This document shows, in pieces, positions 1 through 18,234 of a stretch of DNA of 64,000 bases. The stretch spans positions 1,010,176 through 1,074,175 of the forward strand of contig RPFO01000084.1 in NCBI GenBank assembly GCA_009746045.1, given 5' to 3'. The notes beneath the pieces were generated by a model, which saw only the letters and a program-made list of their open reading frames with translations, did not search any database and was not told where the DNA came from. The number at the start of each line of letters is the position of its first letter. Positions within the stretch are counted from its first letter, which is position 1. This DNA is from Mesostigma viride. Taxonomy: Eukaryota > Streptophyta > Mesostigmatophyceae > Mesostigmatales > Mesostigmataceae. The position numbers and the translations under genes were made by a program.

Positions 1-78
1 CTCCCTCCATCCATCCATCCGGGTTAATGCTCCGTGATGTCCCAGTGGAAGCACGAGTTTAATTATATAATTAATTAA
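1..78 (+). mobile_element. 3' tail of a LINE, truncated by the window edge
   Basis: A CATC repeat is followed by an imperfect hairpin (TGCTCCGTG... to ...AAGCACGAG) and then TTAATTAA-type repeats. The same order occurs on the minus strand at 21165-21235, directly downstream of LINE C-terminal coding sequence. By that comparison this is the 3' end of a plus-strand LINE whose body lies before the window. Nothing else is seen up to the kinase gene at 285. Confidence 0.6.
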
Positions 79-284
79 TGTGGACATGTGTGTGCATGGG
101 CAAAAGCTGGCTAACTCAATCAAAAGACGTGATAATAATTTAGTACTTAATAAGTTAATTAATAAGACATGTGCACCGTGTGTACAACAGGCATCAGTAA
201 TCACCGATAAGTAAACCAAGGCAACCACGATGTTAGATCATGGATCCAAGTCGACAAAGCTGCTGTCACGGTATCCTACATGTC

Positions 285-1466
285 CTAACCCCTGACACGC
301 GGGAGGGGCACCGTGTTCCGTGGTGTCCCTGGAGCGTTCTCTGGGCAAGGCCTGGAAACAAAAGGCCGAGCATTGCGAAACAACTCCTCCACTTCAGACA
401 TCGTGGGTAGCGGGAAAGCAAGGGGGCCCAACCTTTTGGTGTGGTAATAGACATTGTGACACAAGTTAAATAGCCCTGAATCCACAGAATTCACGAAGAG
501 AGCGCGGCCCTTATGCCGAAACAAGGATACCACCATTACAAGGAAGGAGTACACATCATGGTCTCGCTGCGCTGTCACCACCCCTCCTGTCATGCCGGGC
601 TGGTCCACTGTTGCGGGATGCCACCGAGGCTGACGATCCTTACCAGCCTGATGCGTGAAAATCCGTTCCCCCCCTCTTGTCGCCAGGCCGAGATCTGCAA
701 TACGGATTATCGGATGTGCACTTCCTGGCGCCATGGTGTAGAGAAAATTATCGAGCTTGACGTCATTGTGTATAATGTTAACGGCGTGCAAGCCAGCCAA
801 TGCCTTTGCACAGTCTGCAAGGACGCTGGGTGAGCAAACTTCGAAAACACGCTGATTTTCCGGGGCATCACGGGCAGCATGCAAGTCACCACTCATTCTC
901 TCCATGACAATACCACCTACTTCACCGCACGTGGACCAGAGCCCTTCTACTGCAGGGCAGACCTGCGGGCCAGCTATAGACATGAAACCGGCCTCCTTGG
1001 CCACTGCCACAACGGCGGTTATAACAGCCTCCTGGTAGTTCACCAGCAGCGTGTCTCGTCGAAGGCTTGCCAGCTTTACCACTAGCGTAGCCTCGCCACC
1101 TGGTGCACTCGAGCTAGCAGGGATAGCGTATAACGTGCCATGAGCACCTTTTCCTATCCGGTCACCGGACAATTTCACTGCGATGACATGCGTCAACTTG
1201 CTAGCGCTGTGAGAAACCTTTTGATCATAATTCGTCAGCCGCTGCAATGCAATGCTCCAATCCGACGGTGCATTGGTTTGCAGCTCAACGTCCCTGCGAG
1301 CGTGCGAGTCCGCGGCGTTGAACACACGCGACACCCTATGCAAAGCGGTGCATGTACGCAGTCTGTAAGTCCGTGAATTAAAAGCCTGTCTCGCCCTTAA
1401 TGCCGACAGGGTTCCCGGCGACAGGTCCTGTCTGTTGGTCGACATTTTTCTTTTGCAGCTGGCCAT
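285..1466 (-). CDS. Protein kinase-like protein, single exon
   Basis: The 393-residue frame starts at ATG 1466; a second Met at residue 8 is also possible. Kinase landmarks appear in order: a glycine loop GKGAHG (105-110), a VVK lysine (131), a candidate helix-C glutamate (146), a catalytic loop HNDVKLDN (233-240) with Asp235, Lys237 and Asn240, DLG in place of DFG (258-260), and DVYSF (304-308) matching the DVWS region. Catalytic residues look intact, so activity is plausible, probably Ser/Thr given the Lys after HxD. The usual APE motif is not obvious. About 95 residues before the domain resemble nothing I recognise. It lies between a LINE tail and a hairpin-repeat block, 0.5 kb from the 12-kb TIR element, so it may be transposon cargo. 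The substrate is unknown. Confidence 0.75.
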   Translation of the reverse strand: MASCKRKMSTNRQDLSPGTLSALRARQAFNSRTYRLRTCTALHRVSRVFNAADSHARRDVELQTNAPSDWSIALQRLTNYDQKVSHSASKLTHVIAVKLSGDRIGKGAHGTLYAIPASSSAPGGEATLVVKLASLRRDTLLVNYQEAVITAVVAVAKEAGFMSIAGPQVCPAVEGLWSTCGEVGGIVMERMSGDLHAARDAPENQRVFEVCSPSVLADCAKALAGLHAVNIIHNDVKLDNFLYTMAPGSAHPIIRIADLGLATRGGERIFTHQAGKDRQPRWHPATVDQPGMTGGVVTAQRDHDVYSFLVMVVSLFRHKGRALFVNSVDSGLFNLCHNVYYHTKRLGPLAFPLPTMSEVEELFRNARPFVSRPCPENAPGTPRNTVPLPRVRG

Positions 1467-1544
1467 TGTAGGTAGGTATGAATGATCTCGATGCTGTCAA
1501 TTACGATGATACACGAGGTAGTCTATACCTAGGATCGAGAGCTT

Positions 1545-1992
1545 CTTCTTGTATGGCAATGCCGGCTGGGCGATGACGGTGACGGCCGTCACCGTCATCG
1601 CCCTCGACGGGCGTGATGAAAAGTACCTGGTTGATAGGCGGCAGCTATTCACAATATAGGCCGTTTTTTATTACTCCGAATAAAGAGTTAAGAGGTTGGC
1701 CCTCGGCAGGGCGATGACGGGGCGCTGACGGGGCGATGACGGGGCGATGACGGGGCGTTCACGCGCGTGATGAATACAACCTGTTTGATAGGCAGCGGCT
1801 ATTGGTAATATACTTTGTTGATTAAGAGAAGAGTTTAGATGTTGGCCCGTCGAGGGCGATGACGGTGACGAGCGTCACCGTCATCGCCCTCGACGGGCGT
1901 GATGAAAAGCCCATGTTTTATATGCGGTAGCTATTGGTAGTCCGTAGTATATAGGTCGTTGACTATCACTCCGAATAAAGAGTTAACAGGTT
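1545..1992. repeat. Three tandem units with perfect GC-rich hairpins
   Basis: Three related units of about 145-160 bp each run into a shared stretch near ACTCCGAATAAAGAGTTAA. The first and third contain a perfect inverted repeat (GGGCGATGACGGTGACG and its complement, at about 1568-1603 and 1853-1890). The middle unit has a degenerate run of GATGACGGGGC. The block lies upstream of the kinase start and abuts the left end of the 12-kb element. It could be the subterminal region of another transposon. Confidence 0.75.
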
Positions 1993-2395
1993 AAGTGTCG
2001 GCGCTTGCATACTGTACATACATATGTTATGTAGTGGCGTGATCCACAACGTCGTTGTGGGTCACGCTACACTTCGGCCCACCGCCACGCTCAAGTGTCG
2101 GCGCTTGCATACTGTACATATGTTATGTAGTGGCGTGATCCACAACGTCGTTGTGGGTCACGCCACTACATACAGTGCATACAGGGCCTTAGCGTGTGGC
2201 AGTAGACCGAAGTGCACCCGGCGTGTACACCCGTGTACACCCGGAGTGTACACCCGTGTGCACCCACTTCGTTGTGGGTCACGCCACTACATACAGTGCA
2301 TACAGGCCTTAGCGTGTGGCAGTAGACCGAAGTGCACCCGGCGTGTACACCCGTGTACACCCGGAGTGTACACCCGTGTGCACCCACTTACACTT
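1993..2395 (+). repeat. Left terminal inverted repeat and subterminal array
   Basis: The TIR start occurs twice (1993 and about 2092). It is followed by two tandem units of about 120 bp that each contain GTGTACACCCG motifs and a GTGTGGCAGTAGACCG block. The motif holds the palindrome GTGTACAC. Such clusters near transposon ends usually bind the transposase; that role is inferred here. Confidence 0.75.
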
Positions 2396-2701
2396 GGACA
2401 TGTACAGGCAGTGCCGAGCGCCGAGCAGCCGACTTTCAGGTGAACCGCCCAAAGCAATTGAACATAATGCATGGAGCGATAATAATATGGAAATAAACTA
2501 ACACCCATTTCACCGGAAATAATGCATGGAGCGATAACGTACGCCCAAAACCAAAACCTAGAGGAAGCATTTTCGCGCACTGTGTGTTGCTATAAAACAT
2601 CAAATATTTACTGATACTGAATTCATTATCTACTTAGTCATACCACAAAAAAAAAAATACCACGCGGGTTGTCAGACAGACATACCAGTACATACATTGT
2701 A

Positions 2702-3669
2702 ATGGCGTCTGTACAGCCACCAGATCCTGCGAAGGAGCTAAATCGCAAACTCAATGCCAACGCCCGGCGAGCTACGTACGTGGCTAAGCGGATTAAAGAA
2801 ATGGGCAAAGACGCCTGGCTGGAGCAGCGCAGAGAAGCCCGGAAGAAGGAGTACGCAGCAGAATCGGCTGCTGTGAAGGCCGAGGAGCCGTGGGCAGTAG
2901 CGAAGCGGGATTGCGATAACGCCCAGCGGCGCTTCTTGTACCGCAACAAGAAGTGGTGGAGACGCTGTGCAGGCAACGAGCCGCCTTGTCACCCATGGAT
3001 TCGGTTGCGCATGAGGCCCAAATTGCTCTTGGGACGAGCGGCTTATTTAGGACATCAGGTCTTGTGATGCCATCAGAACTGGCCCTGCTTCGTGAAATGT
3101 CTCAGCCTGGAAATACGGTCTATGAGCCGATCTTCAACGCGGTAACTTACAACAAGAAAACTCGCGCATTCGTGACAAATTCTGGTGACAAGCACCGATG
3201 GATGGGCTTCGTGCCCTTCGAGCAGGGTGACCCGGCGCGTAGGATCGCAAATCGTCTGGTGCGTGTCCTGATGGGCCCGGACGGCAAGCATTTCCCAGTG
3301 AAGGGCTACTTTCTGTGGAGCAAGGCGGGATGCAAAGAGCAGCCCGCCCATTCGGACTACACGCGATACCCGGGAGCATGGGATGTGAACTACCCCGTGT
3401 CGGTCATAGTGGCCCCCTTCGCTGGCACATCGTTTGTGTACTGGGAGAACAGTATACTGTACCCAGGCGTGGACAACATGAGCTCCCGCCCTGACGTCAC
3501 GAAGAAGACGTTAGTGTTGGAGGCCGGCGATGTCTTGGTGTGGCACGGGGCGCTTGTGCACGCGGGAGCGGCGTACAAGGAAAGGGATAACTTTCGTTTT
3601 TTCTTCTACGCCCCGGCACTGGGTGAGAAGGGGCTCGTGAAGGACGCGGTGAACCCCGTCCTCGTTTAG
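2702..3669 (+). CDS. 2OG-Fe(II) oxygenase-like protein (apparent frameshift)
   Basis: ATG 2702 opens a lysine/arginine/alanine-rich, probably helical N-terminus. Reading then moves to the -1 frame between about 2920 and 2953 and continues to the stop at 3669; a shorter protein could start at ATG 2995. The second part has the order expected of a double-stranded beta-helix dioxygenase: an HSD metal pair (His at 3349-3351, Asp at 3355-3357), a beta-rich stretch, then GDVLVWHGALVH with the distal His at 3559-3561 and NFRFFFY with the Arg at 3595-3597, a candidate 2OG carboxylate ligand. TET/JBP-type oxygenases are known passengers of some fungal and algal DNA transposons, but I cannot assign this one to that family. 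The frame change may be an unrecognised short intron, a sequence error or a real break; no slippery site is visible. It lies just inside the left TIR. Confidence 0.6.
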
Positions 3670-3747
3670 GATAGGCTAGTGTCATGCACTTGTTGTACGG
3701 TCCTGGCTGACTGCTACATGTCAGAACAATATACAAGCATCCTGCAT

Positions 3748-3792
3748 TGACCTCCCCACGGAGGCATGTTATAATTTATAATTTAATCCTGC
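3748..3792 (+). repeat. LINE-tail-like hairpin downstream of the oxygenase gene
   Basis: CTCCCCACGGAG forms a short hairpin followed by GCATGTTATAATTTA and further TTTAAT sequence. This matches the LINE tails at 14405-14460, 49075-49125 and 54650-54700. It is either a LINE-tail remnant or part of the oxygenase 3' UTR that copies one. Confidence 0.5.
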
Positions 3793-3925
3793 ATTGAGTA
3801 GGATACAACATTACCTGTCCACACAGTGTTTGGTTGGACACTGATTACACGTGACCTGCTGAGCAAATAGTGTCCGTGGGCTTTGGTTTTCCTGCTGCTG
3901 TAATAAATAAAGCTTAAGTCCTCGT

Positions 3926-4620
3926 CACTCACTCACTCACTCACTCACTCACTCACTCACTCACTCACTCACACACTCACTCACTCACTCACTCACTCAC
4001 TCACTCACTCACTCACTCACTCACTCACTCACTCACTCACTCACTCACTCACTCACTCACTCACTCACTCACTCACTCACTCACTCACTCACTCACTCAC
4101 TCACTCACTCACTCACTCACTCACTCACTCACTCACTCACTCACTCACTCACTCACTCACTCACTCACTCACTCACTCACTCACTCACTCACTCACTCAC
4201 TCACTCACTCACTCACTCACTCACTCACTCACTCACTCACTCACTCACTCACTCACTCACTCACTCACTCACTCACTCACTCACTCACTCACTCACTCAC
4301 TCACTCACTCACTCACTCACTCACTCACTCACTCACTCACTCACTCACTCACTCACTCACTCACTCACTCACTCACTCACTCACTCACTCACTCACTCAC
4401 TCACTCACTCACTCACTCACTCACTCACTCACTCACTCACTCACTCACTCACTCACTCACTCACTCACTCACTCACTCACTCACTCACTCACTCACTCAC
4501 TCACTCACTCACTCACTCACTCACTCACTCACTCACTCACTCACTCACTCACTCACTCACTCACTCACTCACTCACTCACTCACTCACTCACTCACTCAC
4601 TCACTCACTCACTCACTCAC
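3926..4620. repeat. (TCAC)n microsatellite, about 0.7 kb
   Basis: An almost pure TCAC tetranucleotide array with one visible ACAC interruption near 3970. The true length may differ because such arrays collapse or expand in assembly. Confidence 0.98.
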
Positions 4621-5230
4621 TGGGTATTGGGTACCTTAGGCATTCGTATGGCAAGGTAGGGAAACTTGAGTCTGATTTTAGGGTAGTGCAATGTGGTAGT
4701 TTGTTTGCTGGGCCACTAAAACCCCTTGAGTGTGACCTTCATGAATCCAGGGTAGGGTAAGGGTTGGTTAGGGTATTACATAGTGGTGGGTATTGTAAGG
4801 TAGGTCTTGAGCTCCTTGAGTGTGACCTTCATGAATCCAGGGTAGGGTCAGGGTTGTAACTATAGAGATACTCACTTAAAAGACTGTGACATTCAAGAAA
4901 CCAGGGTATGGAAATGCGTGTTGTTTGGGGTTGTTTGACTGGCGTACATTACCATAGTTGTCTAACTTAATAGTGGCACGGGATGATGTTATTGCTACTA
5001 CTACTATAGTAATACTCCTAAATTATTGTCATGTGTATAGGGTTTGGGTCTGGTGGTGTGCCCTTTGGCATCCGGGGTGCATGTACATTTACATGAGTGA
5101 GCATTTGCATGGTACATTTGCATGGTGAATGCACTGGACATTTATTAAAAAGGAGGAAATAAACTGAATAGCCGTTGAGTGGAAATGGCTATGGACATGA
5201 ATCCAAAACCACATTGTTGGCATTGCAACA
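4621..5230. other. Non-coding spacer with short diverged repeats
   Basis: No convincing frame. A phrase around CTTGAGTGTGACCTTCATG with GAATCCAGGGTAGGGT following recurs near 4725 and 4815, and a weaker copy lies near 4880, so the spacer is built of diverged duplications. GGGTAGGGTAAGGGTTGG looks telomere-like but is not a regular telomere repeat. Confidence 0.6.
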
Positions 5231-5368
5231 TGTATGCTGTGCTGCAGCACTATGTTCTGTTTAGGACATCAAACAGCATTACATCAGAATAAGACATCAA
5301 AAGTGTGTCATGACAGGATCTCTCTCCTCACATTGAGGATAGACAGTTGTACAAGTATGGCACGGGCC

Positions 5369-8300
5369 TCAGGCACCAAACACCAGCCACTTGAGGGCAT
5401 AGTTGAAATCCGTCTGCTTGGTAAGGGTGTCATGCACAGCCTCCTCGCCCTCCTCCTCCGGGTCCCACAGGACGTTGAACGACCAGCCTGCCGTTGTCTT
5501 CTTGGGCAGCGGCTCGACACGGACCGAGTTGCGTGGCGGTGTGTTGGCGATGGTACCGTAGTACCACTTCCAGTAGGGCTTGCCGTCATCCCCCACCACA
5601 TCCCACAGCTGGCAGATGCGCCTGCCAACCATGGACTCAGGGGTCAGCTGAGAGAGGTGCAACACCTGGGCGGCCAGCAGCTCGGACGCCACAGGTGGGT
5701 CGATCTTCTTATCCTGCATGCGCTTGTACGCACCCTCCTTGTACGCATGCGGGTCGTCCTTGTTGGCATGCGGGTCCCACTTGATGATGACGCGAGCCTT
5801 CTTCGTGGGTGACGCCTTCTTCTTGGGCGACGCCTTGGAGGAGGTGGCGGGGCCCGCCTTGGTGGTGGTGAGGCCAGCCTTGGTGGTGGCGGGGCCCGCC
5901 TTGGTGGTGGTGGGGCCCGCCTTGGTGACGGTGGGGCCCGCCTTGGTGACGGTGGGGCCCGCCTTGGTGACGGTGGGGCCCGCCTTGGTGACGGTGGGCG
6001 CCGAGTGAACCGGTGGGAGGACGTCTGTCTCGTCAATGAACGGGCCACCTCCTCGGAATCCTCGAACGTTGACAGGCGTTTCATTTCGTACCGCCTCTTG
6101 AATGGCACCTGCACCTTGTCACCATGATGTGTCACAGTGGGGGGGGATGGCTCGTCGTCGTCCTCGTCGTCGCAGAGGTCGTCCTCGTCGTAGTCCTCGT
6201 CACTGTCCTCGGCATATGACACCTGCACGCAGTGAGGTGAGGTAAAGCAGCAGCAATGATGATGTCTGTCATGCGTGTACGGGCAAGAAAACCAGCACGG
6301 AGACTGTGTACGCTGGACTAGGGAACCCCATGCATACTAAAATGGGTCACAAAAGTACCGCTACCTTAAGGGTTACACACTCACAACTCCTACATTGCAA
6401 ACAATAACAAGCAAGGGACAATCTGACAAGCATGGACATACCTTCTTGCGAGCCGCACGCGTGCGCTTGCGTGGGGGCACGGCAGCTTCGCCATCTGGGC
6501 GGGCATTGGAGGTGGTCGCGGCCTCCACCACAGGGGTCGGGACAGCTGGCGCCGTCTTTGTGTTGTTGGTGGATGAGCCCGCACGCCCCCTCTGCTTCTT
6601 GGTGGGCGGGCCACCTTGGGCAGCATTGTGGGCGGCCAGCGTCTTCTTGCTGCCCCATACGCGGCACTCCTCGGGGGGTTTGTAGCCCACCACCCCCCTC
6701 TCACCTGCTGCATCTGACGCAGGGGGGGGGGGCAACCCAGTTGGGGTCGACCTCGAAAACGGTGCCTTCAGCGGGCATGGAATCTGGACCGGGCGTGTTG
6801 GCCAGGGGCACCCGCAAGGAAGCAGCCTCAACCTGTTACATACATACAAGGCAAACACACACACACACGGTGCGAGGCAGGCCAACACGCAAAAAGTCAG
6901 CTAAAGGGATTGTGCGGACAGGACAAGTATCAGTTGGTTTGCCAAGTTAAGAAGTCAGCCAGTGGTCCACACATTGCAAAGGCACACCAGCTGAGTTCTT
7001 TTGACATGGTGTCAGAGGATTGATGAAAATGCTCGACTACGCGATGCATTAGCAGCCTGACTTACCGCATCAGCGTTGGGAGTGACCGCCAGTTCCTCGT
7101 CAGTTGGGCGTGGGACCTCGTATTTCGTGAAGCCCTCGGGGCAGACGAGTGCGTCGCGCTTCGGATCCCGCTGGAGGCTGACGGCACAGCCGGTCTGCGT
7201 CCAGCCCTTCATGATGGTCAGCCTGCCCTCAGGCCCGCAGAGGCGGATCCAGGCGATAGCCACGGCATTCTGGATGATGATCCGCGTCTCGGAGGCGTTG
7301 GGCGGGTCAAGCCCATCGCGGGCCCTCGCGTCCATTATGCGGGTGACCTCCGCGTCAAACCAGCGCTTGAACACGGCATTGATGCAGCAGTCATTTGGCT
7401 GCCACAAGTGGGTCATGTTGCCCGGCCCATACCACGGCAACACCCCCATTTCCCGGAGGACTTTCCGAAAGGCGGGGGAGACCTGCATGCACCGATCCAC
7501 CGCAGCACCAAAACACCCAGGCATTGGAAACGACACATAAAAAAAAGAGAATATTAGTCTCCGGCATCATCATCACCACATGCCTTGCAGCCAACATGCA
7601 CATGCACTGAAACGAAACAAGCCAAAGAAAATTGGGGTAATAAGGAAGGAAACACATGCCCACCTGAACAGCGAGGTTGTCCAAGAACAAGAGGACGTCA
7701 CGCTTGCCGTGCTTGGCGTACAACTTCTTCAAAAAGGCTTCAAACAGTTGCAACCACACCTCCGGGGCGTGGTCGCTGAACCAGGCGGAGGCCTGAAAGG
7801 TGACAACCGCCTCAGGCATGTACTGGTTGGTCTCGTAAGCCATACGAGCCACGTTCTTACCCGCGCCGGGGAAGATGATGAGGGGGGGGGCATGTCAGCC
7901 AGCCAGTTCTCGTCAAAGGGGGAGTGGGGGGCGGTGGTCAGGCAAACGGTAACTGCCCGGTGCTTGTAATCCACCTTCTTGGTGCCCATGTTCACGTGGG
8001 ACGCCCCTTTCTCCGCGAAGCACTTGCCCTTCATGTTCCTCAAGGCAAGGCCCACCTGGTCCATGTTAAACCGAAACGTGCCGGTAGCGGGGCCGATGGG
8101 GAAACGCCCCCAATATGGGTCCCTGAGCGCCCTCAAGCCGCTGTTCAAACCGGCGACGATGAGCCCGGAATGAAACTGCTGCAACGCGGGCAACGCCTCC
8201 TCCATGGTGACATTGCGGTGGTTGCTCGCCATCCGCGTGACAAGGCCCCGTCGGCACGCGAACTCGCGGGCCCACGTGTCGGAGTACGCAAAGCCCATCC

Positions 8301-8962
8301 CCGCCGTCGGGTAATGTTTAGCCATCAAGATCTTGGCCTGTGCTTTGACGACGCTGCAATACGATTGGGAAAAACAGGCACGCAAGCAATGAGAGGGCGA
8401 CAATCAGCAAGCTTTTGCGCTCCTTCGAATGTTCACCAAATACACATGCCGCTGTTTAAAGACAGAAACTACCCATCAGTGTTTTCAGCAAAACGAAGAA
8501 CAAGGAAAGCATGCAAACTTACGCAAGCACAGGGGCTCTCTTCTGGCTGACGATCCAGTCCCTCAAATCCGCCTCCATTAATGGAAAGCGGCCTTCTCGT
8601 TGTTTGCCGGGCACCAACCCTCGGCCCGAGTGGTTTTTCAGGCTTGGGTCATCAGCCATGGCACGGATCTTCGCCTTCGTCTCAGATTCCAGCCACCGGC
8701 AGACGGTCGAAGTGCTCACTCCATATTGCTTGGCGACGGCCGACGGCGTGGTAGTTCCCTGTTCGATACACGTGACTGCGACAACTTTCTGCTTCGCGCT
8801 CACGAGCGTGACCAGCTTTGTCTTGGGTGGCTCCAGGATGGGCGCCGCCTTGTCGTCAGCGGTGGGCAAAACATTGTCACTATTGGCCGGAACGCGCGCG
8901 CACAGCTGCGGCTGTCTCCGCCGTGGTTTAGCCCCACTTTCTTTGCCTGTGAAGTTAGTCAT
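5369..8962 (-). CDS. pogo/CENP-B-like DDE transposase with C-terminal chromatin-reader-like segment
   Basis: Five exons fit with GT-AG junctions: 8962-8523, 8353-7664, 7482-7066, 6832-6442 and 6222-5369. Exon 1 holds a psq/CENP-B type helix-turn-helix (SAVAKQYGVSTSTVCRWL). Exon 2 holds a second HTH region (WAREFACRRGL) and the first catalytic Asp in FNMDQVG. The second Asp is in LLFLDNL at the end of exon 2. The third is in LWQPND of exon 3, preceded by the WYGPGNMTHL block that corresponds to PPNTTHLLQP in this superfamily. Exons 4-5 add a basic and then acidic linker, KAGPTVT repeats, and a final segment (from about 5555 down) around MVGRRICQLWDV...WYYGTIAN that resembles Tudor/PWWP/BAH readers. 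Frame slips sit at a G9 run near 7885, a G run near 6725, and near 6055. All three DDE acids are present. Confidence 0.75.
5805..6005 (-). repeat. Coding minisatellite in the transposase tail
   Basis: A 21-bp unit (GCCCGCCTTGGTGACGGTGG on the + strand, plus one base) repeats with variants. In the frame that joins the terminal segment it encodes KAGPTVT and related heptads, followed by lysine-rich KKKASPTKKA sequence like a linker-histone tail. This suggests a flexible DNA-binding linker between the catalytic core and the reader-like end. Confidence 0.8.
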
Positions 8963-9244
8963 GGGGCGTGGCTATGGCGCCAGCCCTCGTGGTGGGCACA
9001 CGTGTACAGTATGGATGGTGCGCACACTTGGGTTGTGCGCAGGTCAGGTTGGTGGTGGATGTGCCACAGGACGACCGATGCTCTTTTTTATATGCAAATT
9101 TGGGCGCCAAACTCAATTTGCACCGACTTTGCCAGATATTTGCCGACCTACACGTGGCTGAGTTGACGTTTCGCGGGCATCGGACGCGCGGGTTAGTCAG
9201 TGTTGCGAATCTGACCATTCGCAAATCGGCGTCGGGCCTGGATC

Positions 9245-9450
9245 TGGCGCCTCGCAATTTGAAAATTGCGGTCTCATTAGGTACGCAATCTACCGACTTG
9301 CGTACATAAGTAGTACTGTAGGACGGCGCAAGGGCGCAAGTGCGCACTTGTCGCGCCTCGCAATTTGAAAATTGCGGTCTCATTAGGTACGCAATCTACC
9401 GACTTGCGTACATAAGGAGTACTGTAGGACGGCGCAAGGGGGCCAGTGCG
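9245..9450. repeat. Two tandem 110-bp units with paired hairpins upstream of the transposase
   Basis: Each unit carries CGCAATTTGAAAATTGCG and, about 10 bp on, GTACGCAA/TTGCGTAC around a 9-bp loop. They lie about 290 bp upstream of the transposase start (minus strand). They may be promoter elements or transposase binding sites; the sequence shows only the symmetry. Confidence 0.75.
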
Positions 9451-9464
9451 CAACTTGTCGCGCC

Positions 9465-10027
9465 TCTTCACCGTGTACACCCGGCATGTATACCCGGAGT
9501 GTACACCCGGAGTGTACACCCGTGTGCACCCGGCAGTGCAGACCGAAGTGGAGCGTGACCCACAACGACGTTGTGGGTCACGCTACACTTCGGCCCACCG
9601 CCACCAAGTGTCGGCGCTTGCATACTGTACATATGTTATGTAGTGGCGTGATCCACAACGTCGTTGTGGGTCACGCCACTACATACAGTGCATACAGGGC
9701 CTTAGCGTGTGGCAGTAGACCGAAGTGCACCCGGCGTGTACACCCGTGTACACCCGGAGTGTACACCCGTGTGCACCCACTTCGTTGTGGGTCACGCCAC
9801 TACATACAGTGCATACAGGGCCTTAGCGTGTGGCAGTAGACCGAAGTGCACCCGGCGTGTACACCCGTGTACACCCGGAGTGTACACCCGTGTGCACCCA
9901 CTTCGTTGTGGGTCACGCCACTACATACAGTGCATACAGTGCCTTAGCGTGTGGCAGTAGACCGAAGTGCACCCGGCGTGTACACCTGTGTACACCCGGA
10001 GTGTACACCCGTGTGCACCCACTTACA
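9465..10027. repeat. Internal array of 121-bp units with GTGTACACCCG motifs
   Basis: Three tandem units with a spacing of about 121 bp (markers at 9708, 9829 and 9951) match the left subterminal array in the same orientation. Just before them, at 9465-9605, lies a right-end-like segment, and the AAGTGTCGGCGCT end motif recurs at about 9605. This could be the joint between two elements or an internal duplication. Confidence 0.8.
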
Positions 10028-10108
10028 GGCGGACTTGAGGATGAATTACCATCCTTGAAAAAATGATGTTTTGACGTAGGTGGTCGGAAAGTTGCACGAA
10101 CGGCAGCG

Positions 10109-13100
10109 ATGGCAGACGGCTTGGCTACGTCGGCGGAGAGAGTGAAGGACACACTGGCCACCATGCGCTCGACATTGCGTGAGCCGGTAAGTACAGTAGA
10201 CGGTTACGCAGTTGGCGGGTATAATTTCATGTTACGCGGCTGGGCATATTACGGAGACAAGGTCGTTGTCCCTGGCGTTATGCAGGCAGGTGATGCGTGG
10301 CCGGGCGCCATGCCCTTTTTGTTTTTTTTGGGCCAACATGCACCTGATGCTTTTCGTCGGTTGTTGACAACCCAATCTGGTGGCTGGCATCCATGCTTTG
10401 GACGTACGCGGGCCGGGATGCACGTGCACGGAGCGCAGGTGAACAATTGCAAGACACCGAATGACTTCGTCAGTCTGTCCAGAGATTTTAAGGGCTCTCC
10501 CGTTGAGAGGCTCGTCGTTACCTTACACACGAAACAGGAGTTACACAGGCGCAAGGATGACCTGAAGAAGCTGGCTGGCGATACGTGGGACGTCAACGCA
10601 TGCACGGCCGCCGTAAGGTTTTCCCTGTAATGTAGCTACAATGTTGTTGCTTTCTGTTGGATGCATTGCAGGTAGAATGCTAGGCCTTGAACCAACCGGC
10701 CGAGGCACATGGGTGACGTCTCTGAATTTGTGGCATGGGGTGTTCCTGGTTTCATGCTGCTTCAATGTACATGGATGCCGTTTGTACGCAGCATCGACGA
10801 CTGAATGAGCACCAGAATAAGCGCGCTGCAAAGGTGTGGCCTGTCAAGAGTGAGCGCGATGCAAACCTGCGGAAGCTTGGAGCCTCAACATCGTCTGCTG
10901 ATGAGCAGAAAGAGGCTGAAGGTGCAGCGCCGGTTGCGTCTGGGGGTAATACACGGCAACCAGCGACGCAGGGTCAGCTCGCAGTCCTTCCCCCGCCCCT
11001 AACCTCCGCCTCCCCCCCAATGCCGTCCTTGGCTCTCTCAGGGGGCTTATCAAGCCTCCCACATGCGGACAGTGCTGCCCGTGCTGGCTACGAGGTAGCA
11101 AATGAGGCGCAACATCTGCTTCGAGCTGCGCTAGAGGCTTTGCAAGGCGTGACAGCAAGTGCGGCGCCAATCCTTAAAGACCCCGTTGCAGCGGGTAATC
11201 TGGCGCAGGCAGTCGTGACCAACCAGATACTCGCGCAGGTAGGGCTCCTGTTATTTTGCACTGAGTTTACCTGTTTATCGGGTTGTTTGTTGTGTTCAAG
11301 CAGTAACGTCTTATCTGAGCATCTCCATTGTTAGGATGTCCACGGCCTTGGCACACCGGGCTTATTTACAGCAATAATCTGCCTGGTGATGTGTGTGATC
11401 GGCACTGTGTGTTGCAGCTCATGCGCGTGGCATCAGCAGCCAATCGGGGCAGCGGGGACGAGGCCGCCACGGCGGTGGTGGGCGGGGGCAGCGGGGACGA
11501 GGCCGCCACGCCGGTGGTGGGCGGGGGCAGCGGGGGTGAGGCCGCCACGGCGCCGGTGGGCGGGGGCAGCGGGGGTGAGGCCGCCATGCCGGTGGTGGGC
11601 GGGGGCAGCCGGGATGAGGCCGCCACGGCGGTGGTGGGCGGGGGCAGCGGGGGTGAGGCCGCCACGGCGGTGGTGGGCGGGGGCAGCCGGGATGAGGCCG
11701 CCACGGCGGTGGTGGGCGGGGGCAGCGGGGGTGAGGCCGCCACGGCGGTGGTGGGCGGGGGCAGCCGGGATGAGGCCGCCACGGCGGTGGTGGGCGGGGG
11801 CAGCGGGGGTGAGGCCGCCACGGCGGTGGTGGGCGGGGGCAGCCGGGATGAGGCCGCCACGGCGGTGGTGGGCGGGGGCAGCGGGGGTGAGGCCGCCACG
11901 GCGGTGGTGGGCGGGGGCAGCCGGGATGAGGCCGCCACGGCGGTGGTGGGCGGGGGCAGCGGGGGTGAGGCCGCCACGGCGCCGGTGGGCGGGGGCAGCC
12001 GGGATGAGGCCGCCACGGCGGTGGTGGGCGGGGGCAGCGGGGGTGAGGCCGCCACGGCGGTGGTGGGCGGGGGCAGCCGGGATGAGGCCACCACGGCGGT
12101 GGTGGGCGGGGGCAGCGGGGGTGAGGCCGCCACGGCGCCGGTGGGCGGGGGCAGCGGGGACGAGGCCGCCACGGCGGTGGTGGGCGGGGGCAGCGGGGGT
12201 GAGGCCGCGGGCAGCGGGGGCGGGGTCGCGGCCAGCAATGATGGGTGGACAGTTTCTGAAGATGCGGAGGAGGTGGACAGTGCTGAGAAGCGCCCAACCG
12301 AGGAGCAGGCACGTACGGGGCCTGACGCATTCATAGACGTGGATGCGTGGGCGGATGCGGTTGAGGCTGCGGCTGCGGCTGCGGGGGGGAAGCGAAAGCG
12401 AAGCCCAAGGCCAGCCGCGCCACTGAAGGTGGTGGGTGATGATGCCCCGTGCACGTCTTGCCAGCAGGGTGCCAGGTTTATGGCGGAGGAAGACTTGGTC
12501 GTAACAGGCGAGCATCAACGCGTTATGAAAAACCAAGGCAACAACTGTTGCTTCTTAGATGCAGCAGTTGACGTGATTTTTTTTACCATCTTGTTTGTCT
12601 TGCAAACACTTGGCGCCCCAGGACTGTCATTCCTCGTGACACGTCCGCCTTGTGTGCCACATACCCCGGATATTTGCCGGATCGGCTGGATTCTCATGAA
12701 ATTGATGTTCTACCGGAGTGCTGGTAGGCTGGACATGATGACTACTAAATGGCGGAATGAGCTGTTTGATCAGCTTTCCAAAGTCGCCCGGGTGCGTGAG
12801 CTGCCGATTCAAGTGGGAGGAATGGGGTCCGTCCATGAAGCATTGTCGCTACTTCTTGTACATTTGAAGGGGTGCCAGCCTACCTTTACACCCTACAAGT
12901 GTGTCGCACGCGCTTCGGAAAAAGAAGATTGTGAACCCCCGCATCCAATCGACCTACGTGTGGCGCACGGTTCCGTACTGGAACGCCTCATGGACAACGC
13001 CGGTTTGTTGGCCAACATGCGGGCTGTCTGCCTGGAAGGCTATATAAGCATCCACCAAGTCGCACGGTGTAAAAGCTTGGGACCGGAACCGTGCCTGAGG

Positions 13101-13478
13101 CAGCGTGTCTTTAAAGGCAACCCCGCATACCTGGTGTTTACCATGCTCCATGGGGAGAAGAGTATCCCCTTGGACAACTACAGTGGGCCTCCTTTGCCCG
13201 TCGCTTTCAATGTGGAAATTAATGTGGATGAAGACGGTGCCATGTCTAAACGCACAGTGGACCTGCGCCTTGCAATTCTCATGCGAGCGTATTATAAGCA
13301 CTGGACCACATTGGTGCCTGCAAGCACTGACCCCACCAGGTGGTGCGAACAGTGGGTGGAGTATGATGACCTTAAGAAAACCGTCCAGCCACGTGGTCGT
13401 CTGAGTGATGTCGTCCAGCAGTTGACCGGCTGCATGTATGGAGCGGTGTACCGTGTGATTACGCCATGCCAGAACTAA
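10109..13478 (+). CDS. Multidomain protein with C-terminal USP-like (C19) protease domain
   Basis: Three exons join cleanly: 10109-10612, 10792-11238 and 11418-13478, with two GT-AG introns of 179 bp each, both in phase 0. This gives about 1003 residues. Residues 1-168 match nothing I recognise. The second exon is Ala/Pro-rich. Residues about 330-590 are a Gly/Ala repeat. The C-terminal 330 residues contain NQGNNCCFLDAAVDV (Cys codons at 12546-12551), the position of the USP cysteine box, and HWTTLV followed by WCEQWVEYDDL (His codon 13299-13301), the position of the USP histidine box. Overall spacing fits a compact deubiquitinase-like peptidase; ubiquitin or a related modifier is the inferred substrate. 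It lies in the right half of the 12-kb element. Which Cys is catalytic is uncertain because two are adjacent. Confidence 0.7.
11451..12225 (+). repeat. In-frame 39-bp minisatellite (Gly/Ala linker)
   Basis: About twenty units of 39 bp encode GGGSGGEAATAVV or GGGSRDEAATAVV. The GG and RD versions largely alternate, giving a 78-bp higher-order unit. Near identity of the copies points to recent unequal exchange. All three frames on both strands stay open, which generates spurious long ORFs. Confidence 0.95.
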
Positions 13479-13489
13479 CCGAGTGCAGT

Positions 13490-13595
13490 GTCAATCATGC
13501 TCCACGGCTCCCCACCGGGACTCCGCGTAGTTAATTAAGTAATGCCAATAAATGTGAATGGTGAGGACAACTTAATATCAACTTGTCATCGAGTA
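13490..13595 (+). repeat. 106-bp segment after the USP-like gene, duplicated at 14777-14882
   Basis: It begins 12 bp after the stop codon and contains TGCTCCACGGCTCCCC...GGGACTCCGCG followed by TTAATTAAG, resembling the LINE tails elsewhere in the window, then AATAAATG. It is probably the gene's 3' UTR. An apparently identical copy lies 1.3 kb downstream, outside the element. Confidence 0.85.
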
Positions 13596-13829
13596 CTGAC
13601 CGCGTACATGTGTCTCCCATGCACATGCTGACAGGTTTACTGGGGATTAGCGTGCACTTTAGGTTGGTCAGTCAGTCAGTTTATTCCCACGCCGGTTATC
13701 CGACAGAGTTATATTAAGGGGGTTAGTCAGTGTTGCGAATCTCGCCTCCTAAGTCCTACGATAATCTTAGTTAATACTCGTACATTATTACAACTAGGTA
13801 CTGGTGAACTTATGAACTTTCTACATAAT

Positions 13830-13980
13830 ACACCCGGCGTGTACACCCGTGTACACCCGGAGTGTACACCCGTGTGTACCCGGGAGTGCACTGCGAAGTG
13901 GAGCGTGACCCACAACGACGTTGTGGATCACGCCACCACATACATATGTACAGTACATACTTGTACTAGCGCCGACACTT
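13830..13980 (-). repeat. Right terminal inverted repeat and subterminal motifs
   Basis: GTGTACACCCG motifs come first, then GAAGTGGAGCGTGACCC, the ACAACGACGTTGT palindrome, and the terminus GCGCCGACACTT at 13980. This is the left end in reverse order. GGTT follows directly. Confidence 0.8.
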
Positions 13981-14404
13981 GGTTAAACATACATGAACAT
14001 TAATACTTGTGACATGATTAGAATTAATATAATGGTAACCCCTTCCTTGCTGGGTAAATAATAATAGTTAGTAACTTGGGCTGGACAAGCATGGTTAAGG
14101 TAATGGCAACATGACTTGCCTAAAGCATTGTTGTTCACTTTGTCTTGACCACCATGGTAAGGGTACATGGTAACATCACTTGGCGTGTATCAAATGGTGA
14201 CTTGGGCTTGACAACCATAGCTAGTGTAGATGGTACCATCACTTGGCTTGATTTATTAAGTTAGACAACTAACTTGATAAACATTGGAGGCCTGAGGTTG
14301 AGTTCCATGGTTATGGTAGGGGTAATACCAGCATCACTACCCTAACTCATTAATTGAGTGATGTTTAATTGAGTATGTTAGTGGGAGCATGTACAATGTG
14401 ATTT
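13981..14404. other. AT-rich spacer without genes
   Basis: A phrase close to CTTGGGCTTGACAACCATGG, with TAAGGGTA-like continuation and variants, recurs loosely at 14070, 14140, 14195 and 14285, suggesting an old tandem repeat. No frame or RNA gene is supported. Confidence 0.5.
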
Positions 14405-14731
14405 TAATTTTAAATTTAATTAAATTATAACATGCCTCCGCTGGGGGGCCATGTAGCACATATTCCAGTGGGGGGTGGGGGTGGGTGGAAGCTGAACCGC
14501 GGGGCCCAAAGGGGGCCATCTATTCTAATCTACTCTAAACCTTTCTAGCCTTGCGCTTGCCCCGCCCTGTGGTGGGGGGTTTGCCCACAGGGGCAGGCTC
14601 ATGTGCCAAGACAATGTCTTGCCACAATGTGATATGACTTCCACTATGAGTATAAAAGTCCTCATGGCATCGGGAAGGAGGGTTAAGGCGAGACATGGGG
14701 CCCCCAGCAATATGACCGCCCGTGCATGCAA
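14405..14731 (-). mobile_element. 5'-truncated LINE 3' end
   Basis: On the minus strand, C-terminal coding sequence (PLWANPPPQGG) leads to a CCACCC stretch, GAATATGTGCTACATG, a CCCCCAGCGG hairpin loop region, and GCATGTTATAATTTAATTAAA. The same order ends the nearly complete LINE at 49075-52460. Only about 330 bp is retained. Confidence 0.65.
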
Positions 14732-14747
14732 TGCAGCCTACAAACTA

Positions 14748-14915
14748 ATGTTTCACTTAATACAAACTAATGCACAGTCAATCATGCTCCACGGCTCCCC
14801 ACCGGGACTCCGCGTAGTTAATTAAGTAATGCCAATAAATGTGAATGGTGAGGACAACTTAATATCAACTTGTCATCGAGTATGTTTCACTTAATACAAA
14901 CTAATGCACAGTCAA
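14748..14915 (+). repeat. Inserted copy of the 106-bp UTR segment between 34-bp direct repeats
   Basis: The second copy of the 13490-13595 segment is at 14777-14882. It is bracketed by identical 34-bp direct repeats (14748-14781 and 14882-14915, starting ATGTTTCACTTAATAC). This looks like an insertion with a long target-site duplication, although local duplication is also possible. Confidence 0.75.
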
Positions 14916-14918
14916 CCT

Positions 14919-15477
14919 AAACTATACTAGTACGATGAAAGGCTAGACACCCCGGGCCCCACGACGGAGGGCACGGCTAGCCCGCCGGCTAGCACGGCTA
15001 GATGTAGCATGTTCCTTCCAATATGAACCTAAATCTCCTGCATCAAGTATATAGCAGTCATTCACTTTATATACATGCATGCTGTAGCGAGCAAATAAGT
15101 GGACAACTGAAAGGGGTCAACCAAGGCAATTGCAAAGCCGTAGTATGTCTGCAAGCAAGCCTGCCTTTAGATAAGGAGAGTTGGGTCTTATGACAGGTCC
15201 TATCATAAGACCCAACTCTCCTTATCTAAAGGCAGGCTTGCTTGCAGACATACTACGGCTTTGCAATTAAATTGGTTGACCCCTTTCAGTTGTCCACTTA
15301 TTTGCTCGCTACAGCATGCATGTATATAAAGTGAATGACTGCTATATACTTGATGCAGGAGATTTAGGTTCATATTGGAAGGAACATGCTACATCTAGCC
15401 GTGCTAGCCGGCGGGCTAGCCGTGCCCTCCGTCGTGGGGCCCGGGGTGTCTAGCCTTTCATCGTACTAGTATAGTTT
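14919..15477. repeat. 560-bp near-perfect palindrome
   Basis: Two arms of about 270 bp (AAACTATACTAGTACG... and its complement) meet near 15198 with only a few bases between them. A few mismatches (for example near 15130 versus 15270) show the arms are separate sequences. It has no coding frame. A foldback/MITE-like element or an inverted duplication is likely; an assembly artefact at an inverted junction must be excluded. Confidence 0.85.
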
Positions 15478-15558
15478 ACTGCTACCAGGCTTCCTAACAC
15501 TCTAGCAACGATGGAAGTTTATGTTCATCATGGCACTACATCCATGTAAGTACCGTAA

Positions 15559-16441
15559 GTTACGTTAAATAGTGCCGGAACCTTTTGCCGCCTGAGGCAA
15601 ATCGGTCCGTAACACTATTTTGCCCGGAATAACCACTTCCGAGCACCCAAGTTAATTCGGCCGAATTAACTTGGGTGCTCGGAAGTGGTTATTCCGGGCA
15701 AAATAGTGTTACGGACCGATTTGCCTCAGGCGGCAAAAGGTTCCGGCACTATTTAACGTAACTAAAACCTGGCCTCATGGAGGGGGGACGAAGAGCCCGA
15801 GACATCCGCCTAGGCCGCTGAGCACGCACCACTAAATGCGCCGGAACTGCCTCAGTGAGGATTCGAACCCCTGACCTCCAAGGTGCACAGGTTTTAGTTA
15901 CGTTAAATAGTGCCGGAACCTTTTTGCCGCCTGAGGCAAATCGGGCCGGAACACTATTTTGCCCGGAATAACCACTTCCGAGCACCCAAGTTAATTCGGC
16001 CGAATTAACTTGGGTGCTCGGAAGTGGTTATTCCGGGCAAAATAGTGTTCCGGCCCGATTTGCCTCAGGCGGCAAAAAGGTTCCGGCACTGTTTAACGTA
16101 ACTAAAACCTGTGCACCTTGGAGGTCAGGGGTTCGAATCCTCACTGAGGCAGCTCCGGCGCATTTAGTGGTGCGTGCTCAGCGGCCTAGGCGGATGTCTC
16201 GGGCTCTTCGTCCCCCTCCACGAGGCCAGGTTTTAGTTACGTTAAACAGTGCCGGAACCTTTTTGCCGCCTGAGGCAAATCGGGCCGGAACACTATTTTG
16301 CCCGGAATAACCACTTCCGAGCACCCAAGTTAATTCGGCCGAATTAACTTGGGTGCTCGGAAGTGGTTATTCCGGGCAAAATAGTGTTCCGGCCCGATTT
16401 GCCTCAGGCGGCAAAAAGGTTCCGGCACTGTTTAACGTAAC
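15559..16441. repeat. Nested palindrome made of three copies of a 205-bp palindromic MITE
   Basis: The copies at 15559-15762, 15897-16102 and 16236-16441 each start GTTACGTTAAA and end with its complement. Each is itself a full palindrome centred on TTAATTCGGCCGAATTAA. The two intervening segments (15763-15896 and 16103-16235) are inverted copies of each other, so the whole 0.88 kb is one large palindrome. The name MITE is inferred from shape; no transposase relative is in view. Confidence 0.85.
16103..16160 (+). other. tRNA-like T-arm (B-box) sequence, inverted copy at about 15840-15896
   Basis: GGTTCGAATCC sits inside AGGGGTTCGAATCCTCACTG, which matches a tRNA T-arm and pol III B-box. No matching 5' acceptor strand or D-arm is visible, so it is not a complete tRNA. 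It is probably the head of a tRNA-derived SINE or a tRNA fragment carried between the MITE copies. Confidence 0.45.
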
Positions 16442-16575
16442 TCCGTACTGTAGGTTGTCTCCACATATCGCTGATCAATTCTACTTGTGTTGGAAAGGTT
16501 TTTCCATCACATTGGTGCCCACACTTTGGTGGGTCACAGAAGGGTTAGCATGACATGCGTCCAGCCAAGGTTGTT

Positions 16576-17586
16576 TCACTTAGCACATTCTCCATCGCCA
16601 CATCCCTTTGCGGCAAAATCGTCCACCGGCACAGCCCCTGGCGCCACAGCCACTGGCGGCTCAGCCATTTGCGCCACAGCCACTTCCGGCACAGCCACTG
16701 GCGCCACAGCCACTTGTGGCACGGCCACTTGCACCACAGCCACTTGAGATGATGCCACTGGCGCCACATCCTCGAGAGCCGCATCCACTCCCGGCACAGC
16801 CACTGGCGCCACAGCCACTTGCGCCACATCCACTTGCGGCAAAGCCTCCTGTGGCACAGCCACTTGCGGCACAGACGCTTGCTGCACAGGGTTCTCTTCC
16901 TCGTAGTTGGCCCTTCGCCAGACGTCCACGCTACGGCGGGCATTGGCAATCAACTCGCACTTGCCTTCGTGATTAAGCAAAAAGTGCCGTGCTTGACATT
17001 CCGAGGAGCAATAAGTTGCGTCCATGCAATCCCGGCATACCTTCAGATCGACGCCAGCGCCACCATTGAAACACTTGACGCAACGACCACCCTCGGACGG
17101 CTTCTCGTCATAATAGAACAAAACCCCGTCGCAGTCACCCGGAGTTCCCTGCGCGGTGACGGGGAAAGACGCCGCGACTAAGACGCCGTCGTTGTCGCGC
17201 TCCGTAAATCGCACAAACACGTCGTAGCGAGACGAAGACTGGCGAGGAATGCCTGCGAGATAAGCGGCAACGCTCGTGCCTGCAAATTCTGCCAACAGGG
17301 CGTTTGCGGAGACGAAGCGCAGGGGGACGGCAGTAAATGCCTCCGACAGGTACTCAACAGGAAAACGCGCCTCCAAAAGCAGCACCGTCTCCTCCGAAAG
17401 ATTCTTCAACTTCTTCTCGGTGTTCATCTGGATCGTTACATTGGGCACGGCCGAAATGCAGCCGCGAAATGTTTGTAGATATTCGTAAAAATCATAAATG
17501 ACGACGTCTCTCGCCGCCGCCATTTCACGACGCTCCGGCAGCACAGCCGGGAATATCTCAATGGCGATTCCTTCCATCTGCTTCAT
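16576..17586 (-). CDS. MYND-type zinc-finger protein with C-terminal VAVP repeats
   Basis: A single-exon frame of 336 residues from ATG 17586. The N-terminal half has no motif I can name. A MYND finger follows: CVKCF...CRDCMDATYCSSECQ...H...C, with the Cys-X2-Cys, Cys-X2-Cys, YC-X3-CQ and final His/Cys pattern, all ligands present (about 17065-16950). MYND fingers mediate protein contacts, often with transcriptional repressors. After the finger the protein ends in about 90 residues of degenerate V-A-V/P-Q repeats coded by a minisatellite. No splice sites are needed. It may be a host gene or domesticated; neighbours on both sides are repeats. Confidence 0.8.
   Translation of the reverse strand: MKQMEGIAIEIFPAVLPERREMAAARDVVIYDFYEYLQTFRGCISAVPNVTIQMNTEKKLKNLSEETVLLLEARFPVEYLSEAFTAVPLRFVSANALLAEFAGTSVAAYLAGIPRQSSSRYDVFVRFTERDNDGVLVAASFPVTAQGTPGDCDGVLFYYDEKPSEGGRCVKCFNGGAGVDLKVCRDCMDATYCSSECQARHFLLNHEGKCELIANARRSVDVWRRANYEEENPVQQASVPQVAVPQEALPQVDVAQVAVAPVAVPGVDAALEDVAPVASSQVAVVQVAVPQVAVAPVAVPEVAVAQMAEPPVAVAPGAVPVDDFAAKGCGDGECAK
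16625..16880 (-). repeat. Coding minisatellite in the MYND gene
   Basis: Units near GCCACAGCCACTTGCGGCAC, mostly 15-30 bp long, encode the VAVPQVAVAPVA tail. Copies are diverged, so the array is older than the one in the USP-like gene. Confidence 0.85.
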
Positions 17587-17712
17587 AATACCACGAAACC
17601 AGCTTTTAGAGCAAAAGTTATGGATGGATTGTGAACTTCGAAGTGAGACGATGCCTGTGAATATACATGCGCACGCAGACCTCGCCACCTTGGAAATAAA
17701 ACAGTCAAGACG

Positions 17713-17739
17713 CCAACCGATACAGGATGTATCGGTTGG
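17713..17739. repeat. Perfect 12-bp-stem hairpin
   Basis: CCAACCGATACA, a 3-base loop, then the exact complement. It lies 127 bp upstream of the MYND start codon. It may be a small MITE remnant or a regulatory palindrome. Confidence 0.7.
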
Positions 17740-17880
17740 GGGCTCCTCTTTACGTTCTGTACTTCTGTAGGTACATTACGTGTTGGGCCGGTGGTCAGCT
17801 CGTAACAAGTCAGTCAGTCTGTCTCTTGCGGAACTTCAAGTACAGAATTCGCCACCACTTTGGGCCGTATCGGTCCTTGG

Positions 17881-17938
17881 TAGTTACGCAACAAACATTC
17901 GAACGGTCGCCGTGGAAAGTACCTTTGTTGCGTAACTA
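17881..17938. repeat. 58-bp inverted repeat, 15-bp arms
   Basis: TAGTTACGCAACAAA and its exact complement enclose 28 bp. The shape fits a very small MITE. Confidence 0.7.
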
Positions 17939-18234
17939 GTTGCGTTACCGCGGGTTGGTACTGTACCAGCTGCGCGGCAGCTCATGTCTATATAATTTTT
18001 CAAACATGGGCTGCATGTGCCGGCGCACGTTCACGACTCGCCAGTAGTGACGTAAAGCGCCTGAGGATCGACTCTAGTCTGAGTCTGCATGCAGGCCATG
18101 CCAGGCTAGGGCTCGATGAGCTCACGCAATTGCATGGCCGAGGCGTATAGATAATCTGATTTGGCACGCCGCAAAGGTGAAAACCATTTGCATTCAGTGC
18201 CGGTCCGCAGAAAACGTGGAAAAACGCGATCTGC

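Follow-up and report, generated by a model that had tools for sequence, protein, structure and literature searches.

Gene content of the locus

The window, i.e. the whole stretch of DNA analysed, comprises 64,000 nucleotides of the Mesostigma viride genome (C1702:1010176-1074175) and was compared with other copies in the same genome (439.9 Mb searched, 2243 contigs). Within positions 1993-13980, originally proposed to be a 12-kb transposon, three coding regions were found in the predicted order, namely oxygenase-like, transposase and protease-like (Table 1). The larger element to which this segment belongs also contains a gene for a MYND-finger protein and a kinase that was inserted, so that the predicted gene count of the mobile unit was too low.

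Table 1. Features of the element and their positions in the window
Feature	Positions	Strand	Remarks
Element portion inside the window	1..17963	.	Comparison with same-genome copies
Protein kinase ORF, 403 aa	285..1496	-	Pkinase 4.8e-8; within the block insertion at TTAA, from about -961 to 1994
Left GGTT	1989..1992	.	Kinase-block edge rather than target duplication of the 12-kb unit; TTAA at 1991-1994
Left sub-terminal repeat array	1993..2400	.	13-mer at 1993 and 2093
Oxygenase-like gene	2702..3669	+	Frame shifted in this copy
Transposase	5370..8962	-	Five predicted exons, putative HTH and DDE_1 (Pfam, exon prediction)
Internal repeat array	9471..10037	.	13-mer at 9606
Protease-like gene (USP-like by motif), 1003 aa	10109..13478	+	Predicted exons 10109-10612, 10792-11238, 11418-13478
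Fast-changing protease-like domain	12486..13475	+	
Right sub-terminal repeats	13824..13980	.	Inverse 13-mer at 13968-13980
Right GGTT	13981..13984	.	Inside the larger element
MYND-finger protein, 336 aa	16576..17586	-	zf-MYND E 2.2e-6
Outer right inverted repeat	17927..17963	-	37 bp, perfect match to left repeat
TA adjoining right end	17964..17965	.	

The oxygenase-like product was 96% identical over 98% to a protein (P0001) in which the HSD, H and R of the HxD...H...R motif were read by eye. The predicted oxygenase assignment was supported in part by a PhyH match of 24.1 bits (cut-off 22), but this match covers only 23 residues. PhyH alone was reported up to E 10 in Pfam and the TET/JBP profile gave no match; a distant TET/JBP relation is possible. 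A structure model was unusable (pLDDT 37.5). Relative to the six of seven other copies in which the search pattern matched, the oxygenase frame of the window copy is shifted; one of the six, C1568, is itself interrupted by two stop codons.

A pogo-like DDE transposase, as had been predicted for a large DNA transposon, was recognised through DDE_1 (PF03184; 31.6 bits against a cut-off of 22, E 1.5e-7) in a read-through translation containing a single X, the match on the largest single piece being below cut-off (E 0.0012). The third acid of DDE/D, read by eye, is a D located 35 residues past the second. HTH_23 (24.4 bits, cut-off 24.6) and CENP-B_N (20.9, cut-off 21.2) both fell just below their cut-offs. 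No homologue was found in the protein collection at E<=0.001, and Pfam gave no match for the C-terminal 'reader' attributed to this protein. Frame changes occur in the window copy at two poly-C runs (about 7880-7890 and 6725-6740) and in exon 5. Nine C were present at the first run in all six matched copies (eight examined, window included), whilst the second varied from 11 to 13 C among copies and the exon-5 change was common to two of seven other copies. The frame change at the first run is either real or an assembly error common to the copies; the two runs may be slippage sites or reflect a shared sequencing error.

The protease-like gene reads through its three predicted exons, and the encoded protein contains a run of 13-aa repeats as well as a C-terminal domain. 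Its designation as USP-like found support in the order of Cys, then His and Asp, with C22, H272 and D294 of the domain kept in one relative (L069, 30% identity), but not in Pfam, PHROGs or the PDB: no Pfam match was reported up to E 10, PHROGs gave no match, and no USP occurred among the PDB matches. A search of the protein collection with the domain found nothing useful, and the structure model had a pLDDT of 36.3. We take the three residues to be the catalytic motifs, and their order is presumably nearer to USP than to Ulp1. A 119-bp copy of the 3' region of this gene (13477-13595, 96%) is located between 34-bp direct repeats at 14748-14915, a stretch skipped by the alignments of C1679 and C1635; this copy is possibly a processed or repair-templated insertion.

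Outer ends and putative target site

Positions 1993-13980 are the middle of an element of about 20 kb and not a stand-alone transposon. In the window copy this element is 19,935 bp long, with its left end 1,971 bp to the left of the window (L031:8029, C1702:1008204) and its right end at 17963, and is bordered by terminal inverted repeats (CAGTACC...GGTACTG) that are perfect over 37 bp. Longer stretches from seven other contigs, one only 10 kb and one with 3185 N, were aligned, and similarity among the copies spans about -1973 to about 17967. Both limits are reached by C1679 and C1635, and the left one by C1568, C557 and C1468. Beyond the outer ends the flanks vary between copies, with similarity ending at the inverted repeats at every end compared.

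The dinucleotide TA adjoins the outside of the left end in 9/10 copies and of the right end in 13/14, and stands at both ends of all seven copies for which both were seen (C1702, C1679, C1635, C1568, C557, C2034 and C302). The two exceptions, CA on the left of C1801 and TT on the right of C17, count against a TA duplication. Twenty-three of the best 40 of 184 candidates obtained with a right-end query match nearly the whole query and 17 match only its last ~226 bp, indicating that other elements also use the outer right end.

Gene set across copies

Near-identical transposase exon 3 was found on 23 contigs, 19 of which also hold the protease-like gene, the MYND gene and the outer right end, some broken or spread by insertions. 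Copies therefore mostly keep the gene set together, as expected from the original prediction. Of the remaining four, two run off the contig (C2206, C902) and two lack the rest (C1801, C1468). More than 90% of the oxygenase span was present in 20/30 left-end loci. Two copies on C1579 combine the left array, the protease-like gene and the inner right end, with no transposase among the matches listed. On C998, a diverged sister locus carries a MYND gene (38%) and a transposase gene (54%) in the same order and strand, with no protease match among the matches listed; this shared arrangement links the transposase to a gene beyond the limits of the 12-kb unit. The element's own genes are four in number, i.e. 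the oxygenase-like, transposase, protease-like and MYND-finger genes.

Two further stretches were observed in the window copy. One, at 15201-16443, is palindromic, is largely skipped by the C1679 and C1635 alignments and is probably a later insertion in this copy. The other, at 3925-4650, consists of ~700 bp of an 8-bp tandem repeat within the element.

Inner repeats and the kinase block

The 13-mer AAGTGTCGGCGCT at 1993, its inverse at 13968-13980 and the GGTT outside each of them are present as had been reported. Their interpretation as mobile-unit ends with a 4-bp target duplication did not survive comparison of the copies, which share sequence far beyond the 13-mers. The GGTT on the left marks the edge of a kinase block and is missing from four copies. 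The 13-mer also occurs at 2093 and 9606 and is therefore a sub-terminal repeat. The original proposal is refuted in part by this recurrence inside the element and by a 12-kb unit not seen outside the larger one.

A 208-bp left-end query produced at least 113 matches and at least 30 loci (best 40 of 193 candidates). GGTT precedes the 13-mer in 24 of 30 loci fetched, and the same left-hand sequence accompanies it in 23 of these 24 (window copy included), similarity continuing leftward into the kinase ORF in most left-end loci. Four of the others (L018, L021, L022, L023) lack GGTT and continue directly to the outer end, and two (L028, L030) lack the end. The exception among the 24, L015 on C1679, has a TTAA-flanked insert at the point where the left similarity breaks. 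This contig was considered as an independent 12-kb insertion and rejected, its flank being a 1.36-kb insert (L032 8641-10000) that has CCC...GGG ends and lies between two TTAA. The insert resembles, as we suppose, a non-autonomous piggyBac element.

The distance from the outer left end to the 13-mer is 997-1005 bp in C2034, C302, C168 and C1801, which have no kinase in this interval, as compared to 3,964 bp in the window. The kinase-free junction reads CGCTTAAGTGTCGG (CGCCTAAG in C2034), and the edges of the window block are CGCTTAAGGCTCCG near -962 and AGGTTAAGTGTCGG at 1988. Comparison of these junctions places a ~2.95-kb kinase block between two TTAA and makes GGTT the block edge; the block is, to judge from the junctions, a later insertion carried by most element copies. 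Kinase copies that are nearly complete (400 or more of the 403 residues, 98-100%) occupied at least 39 rows among the best 103 of 441 candidates, and 32 of these 39 were not beside a left end among those listed. All six free copies examined (L063-L068) run from AACAGGTTAA into another array, such that the block may represent a repeat of its own in truncated form. At five loci (L017, L025, L026, L027, L029), short derivatives (~355-476 bp) carrying the 13-mer at either end adjoin the kinase-block edge and have a different right flank.

These data bear on two other accounts of the copies. In a nested arrangement, the 12-kb unit would be an old transposon, with AAGTGTCGGCGCT ends and a GGTT duplication, that inserted into the outer transposon and has travelled with it from then on. 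The inverted 13-mers with GGTT outside both, and the short derivatives ending in the 13-mer, are as expected from such an event, but the left flank is common to 23 of 24 GGTT copies, the other having an insert there, the kinase block at TTAA accounts for a left GGTT that four copies lack, and the MYND gene, which lies beyond the unit, has retained its order relative to the transposase in the C998 sister. We consider nesting unlikely. Segmental duplication or unresolved haplotypes, instead of transposition, could produce copies as alike as these in an assembly with many small contigs, and abundant segmental duplications are named in the abstract of the Mesostigma paper (PMC6947507); since the flanks differ at every end compared and similarity stops at the inverted repeats, this origin is highly improbable.

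Sequence variation in the protease-like domain

As compared to the window copy, protease identity was lower than transposase identity in all 19 contigs, with medians of 94 and 99%, respectively (best row per contig, several being partial; secondary fragment rows dropped). MYND identity was 99-100% in 22 of 23 contigs, the other one having 90% and a stop. Across C1702, C1679 and C1635, the protease domain contained 37 variants in 1236 bp, as against 5 in 1631 bp for exons 1-2, introns and 3'UTR combined, with none in the 358 bp of the two introns. This is about ten times more variation in the domain (Fisher 1.4e-9, three copies), in a test that compares all rows with one copy and whose related rows are not independent. 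As copies align ambiguously in the repeats between 11418 and 12240, this part was excluded from the counts.

Pooled pairwise pN/pS was discarded as a statistic, as it counts shared changes repeatedly, and was replaced by distinct sites and codons. Inclusion of 499 bp of C1857 gave 33 variable codons, 30 by replacement and 3 silently, and 9 of the 33 showed more than one base difference. All 15 variable codons in the C-terminal part of the domain change the residue. The replacement excess was modest (one-sided p 0.034, 3-4 copies, with the same dependence among rows) and silent differences were raised too. Variation was also observed in non-coding sequence at 2400-2700 (7 variants in 301 bp) and in the oxygenase (about 13 per kb), and the former indicates that protein selection is not the sole source of local variation. 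Replacement:silent ratios for the C-terminal part of the oxygenase were 8:1 in two copies and 15:2 plus 2 stops in seven. As transposase exon 3 shows an excess too (9:0 in seven copies), no claim is drawn for the oxygenase.

We read the variation of the protease domain as a putative arms race with host defence; fast amino-acid change of this kind fits the putative escape from silencing that was originally proposed. There is nearly an even chance, however, that the variation stems not from protein selection but from a local mutation hot spot or from diverged paralogues, through gene conversion or recombination. In favour of such an origin are the raised silent differences in the domain, the 9/33 codons altered at two or more bases, the presence of diverged paralogues in the genome and the variable non-coding 2400-2700 stretch. 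Against it are introns without a single variant and a C-terminal part in which every variable codon replaces a residue and the rest is identical. The specific proposal of a pogo-type transposon with a counter-defence module, in which the protease (perhaps with the oxygenase) is in an arms race whilst the transposase and MYND protein are nearly fixed, and in which a protease-kinase pairing recurs in a second diverged gene family, is less likely than not.

Proposed mechanism and relation to known transposons

The best explanation of the locus, and a probable one, is a cut-and-paste transposon of ~20 kb from the IS630-Tc1-mariner/pogo group, inserted at TA, with four genes of its own, a later kinase block, anti-silencing cargo and a protease tracking a host factor. 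Assignment to this group fits the outer ends, the adjoining TA and the DDE_1 transposase, as judged from their sequences. The transposase would bind the outer ends, and perhaps also the sub-terminal repeats, excise the element and reinsert it at TA, with a putative TA target duplication. The MYND protein would recruit partners. The oxygenase-like protein would alter a mark on chromatin or nucleic acid, and the protease-like protein would strip ubiquitin, or a tag resembling it, from a host factor acting in silencing or repair, both thereby protecting the element against silencing. Counter-changes in the host would then drive change in a protease that tracks this factor.

With the DDxD/pogo superfamily the element shares a DDE_1-type core, a putative HTH region, inverted repeats starting CAG and TA beside the ends, but it differs in its ~20 kb, in at least three further genes and in a transposase with introns and a long tail. 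A length of 20 kb is long for the IS630-Tc1-mariner/pogo group and counts against the best explanation. The target duplication of this group is TA and lengths above 4 kb are commoner in pogo, according to PMC8533490.

Accessory genes are known on eukaryotic DNA transposons, and their anti-silencing action is largely conjecture. Some MULE and Plavaka elements carry Ulp1 proteases, cysteine proteases thought to act on ubiquitin-like tags; the Mesostigma element likewise has a cysteine-protease-like cargo, but its domain matches no Pfam model. Oxygenase cargo with a proposed anti-silencing role is also described, in PMC12730594, for TET/JBP-carrying DNA transposons, but those are fungal and have other transposases, and the Mesostigma oxygenase has no TET/JBP profile match. 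The words 'mariner', 'pogo' and 'protease' are absent from the main text of that source, in which IS3EU members also bear an alpha-kinase gene. No paper on a transposon with an oxygenase and a deubiquitinase or ubiquitin-specific protease was found among open-access full texts searched with this wording. The counter-defence proposal, if true, would describe a eukaryotic transposon with a fast-changing, effector-like cargo. Whether cargo acts against host silencing can be approached directly through young copies whose differences are concentrated in one cargo domain, since the residues that change point to the surface of interest.

Elsewhere in the genome, diverged kinase genes also occur near diverged protease-like genes. 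Of 18 diverged kinase rows (40-44%) among the matches listed, 11 lie 4.5-7.8 kb from a protease-like gene that is itself diverged (29-41%) and has the same orientation (C1824, C1679, C419, two on C446, C1502, C1591, C113, C661, C1623 and C557); these pairs are perhaps a second element family. A lone protease-like relative at C335:4003574-4004518 (46% identity) is intermediate between the two families.
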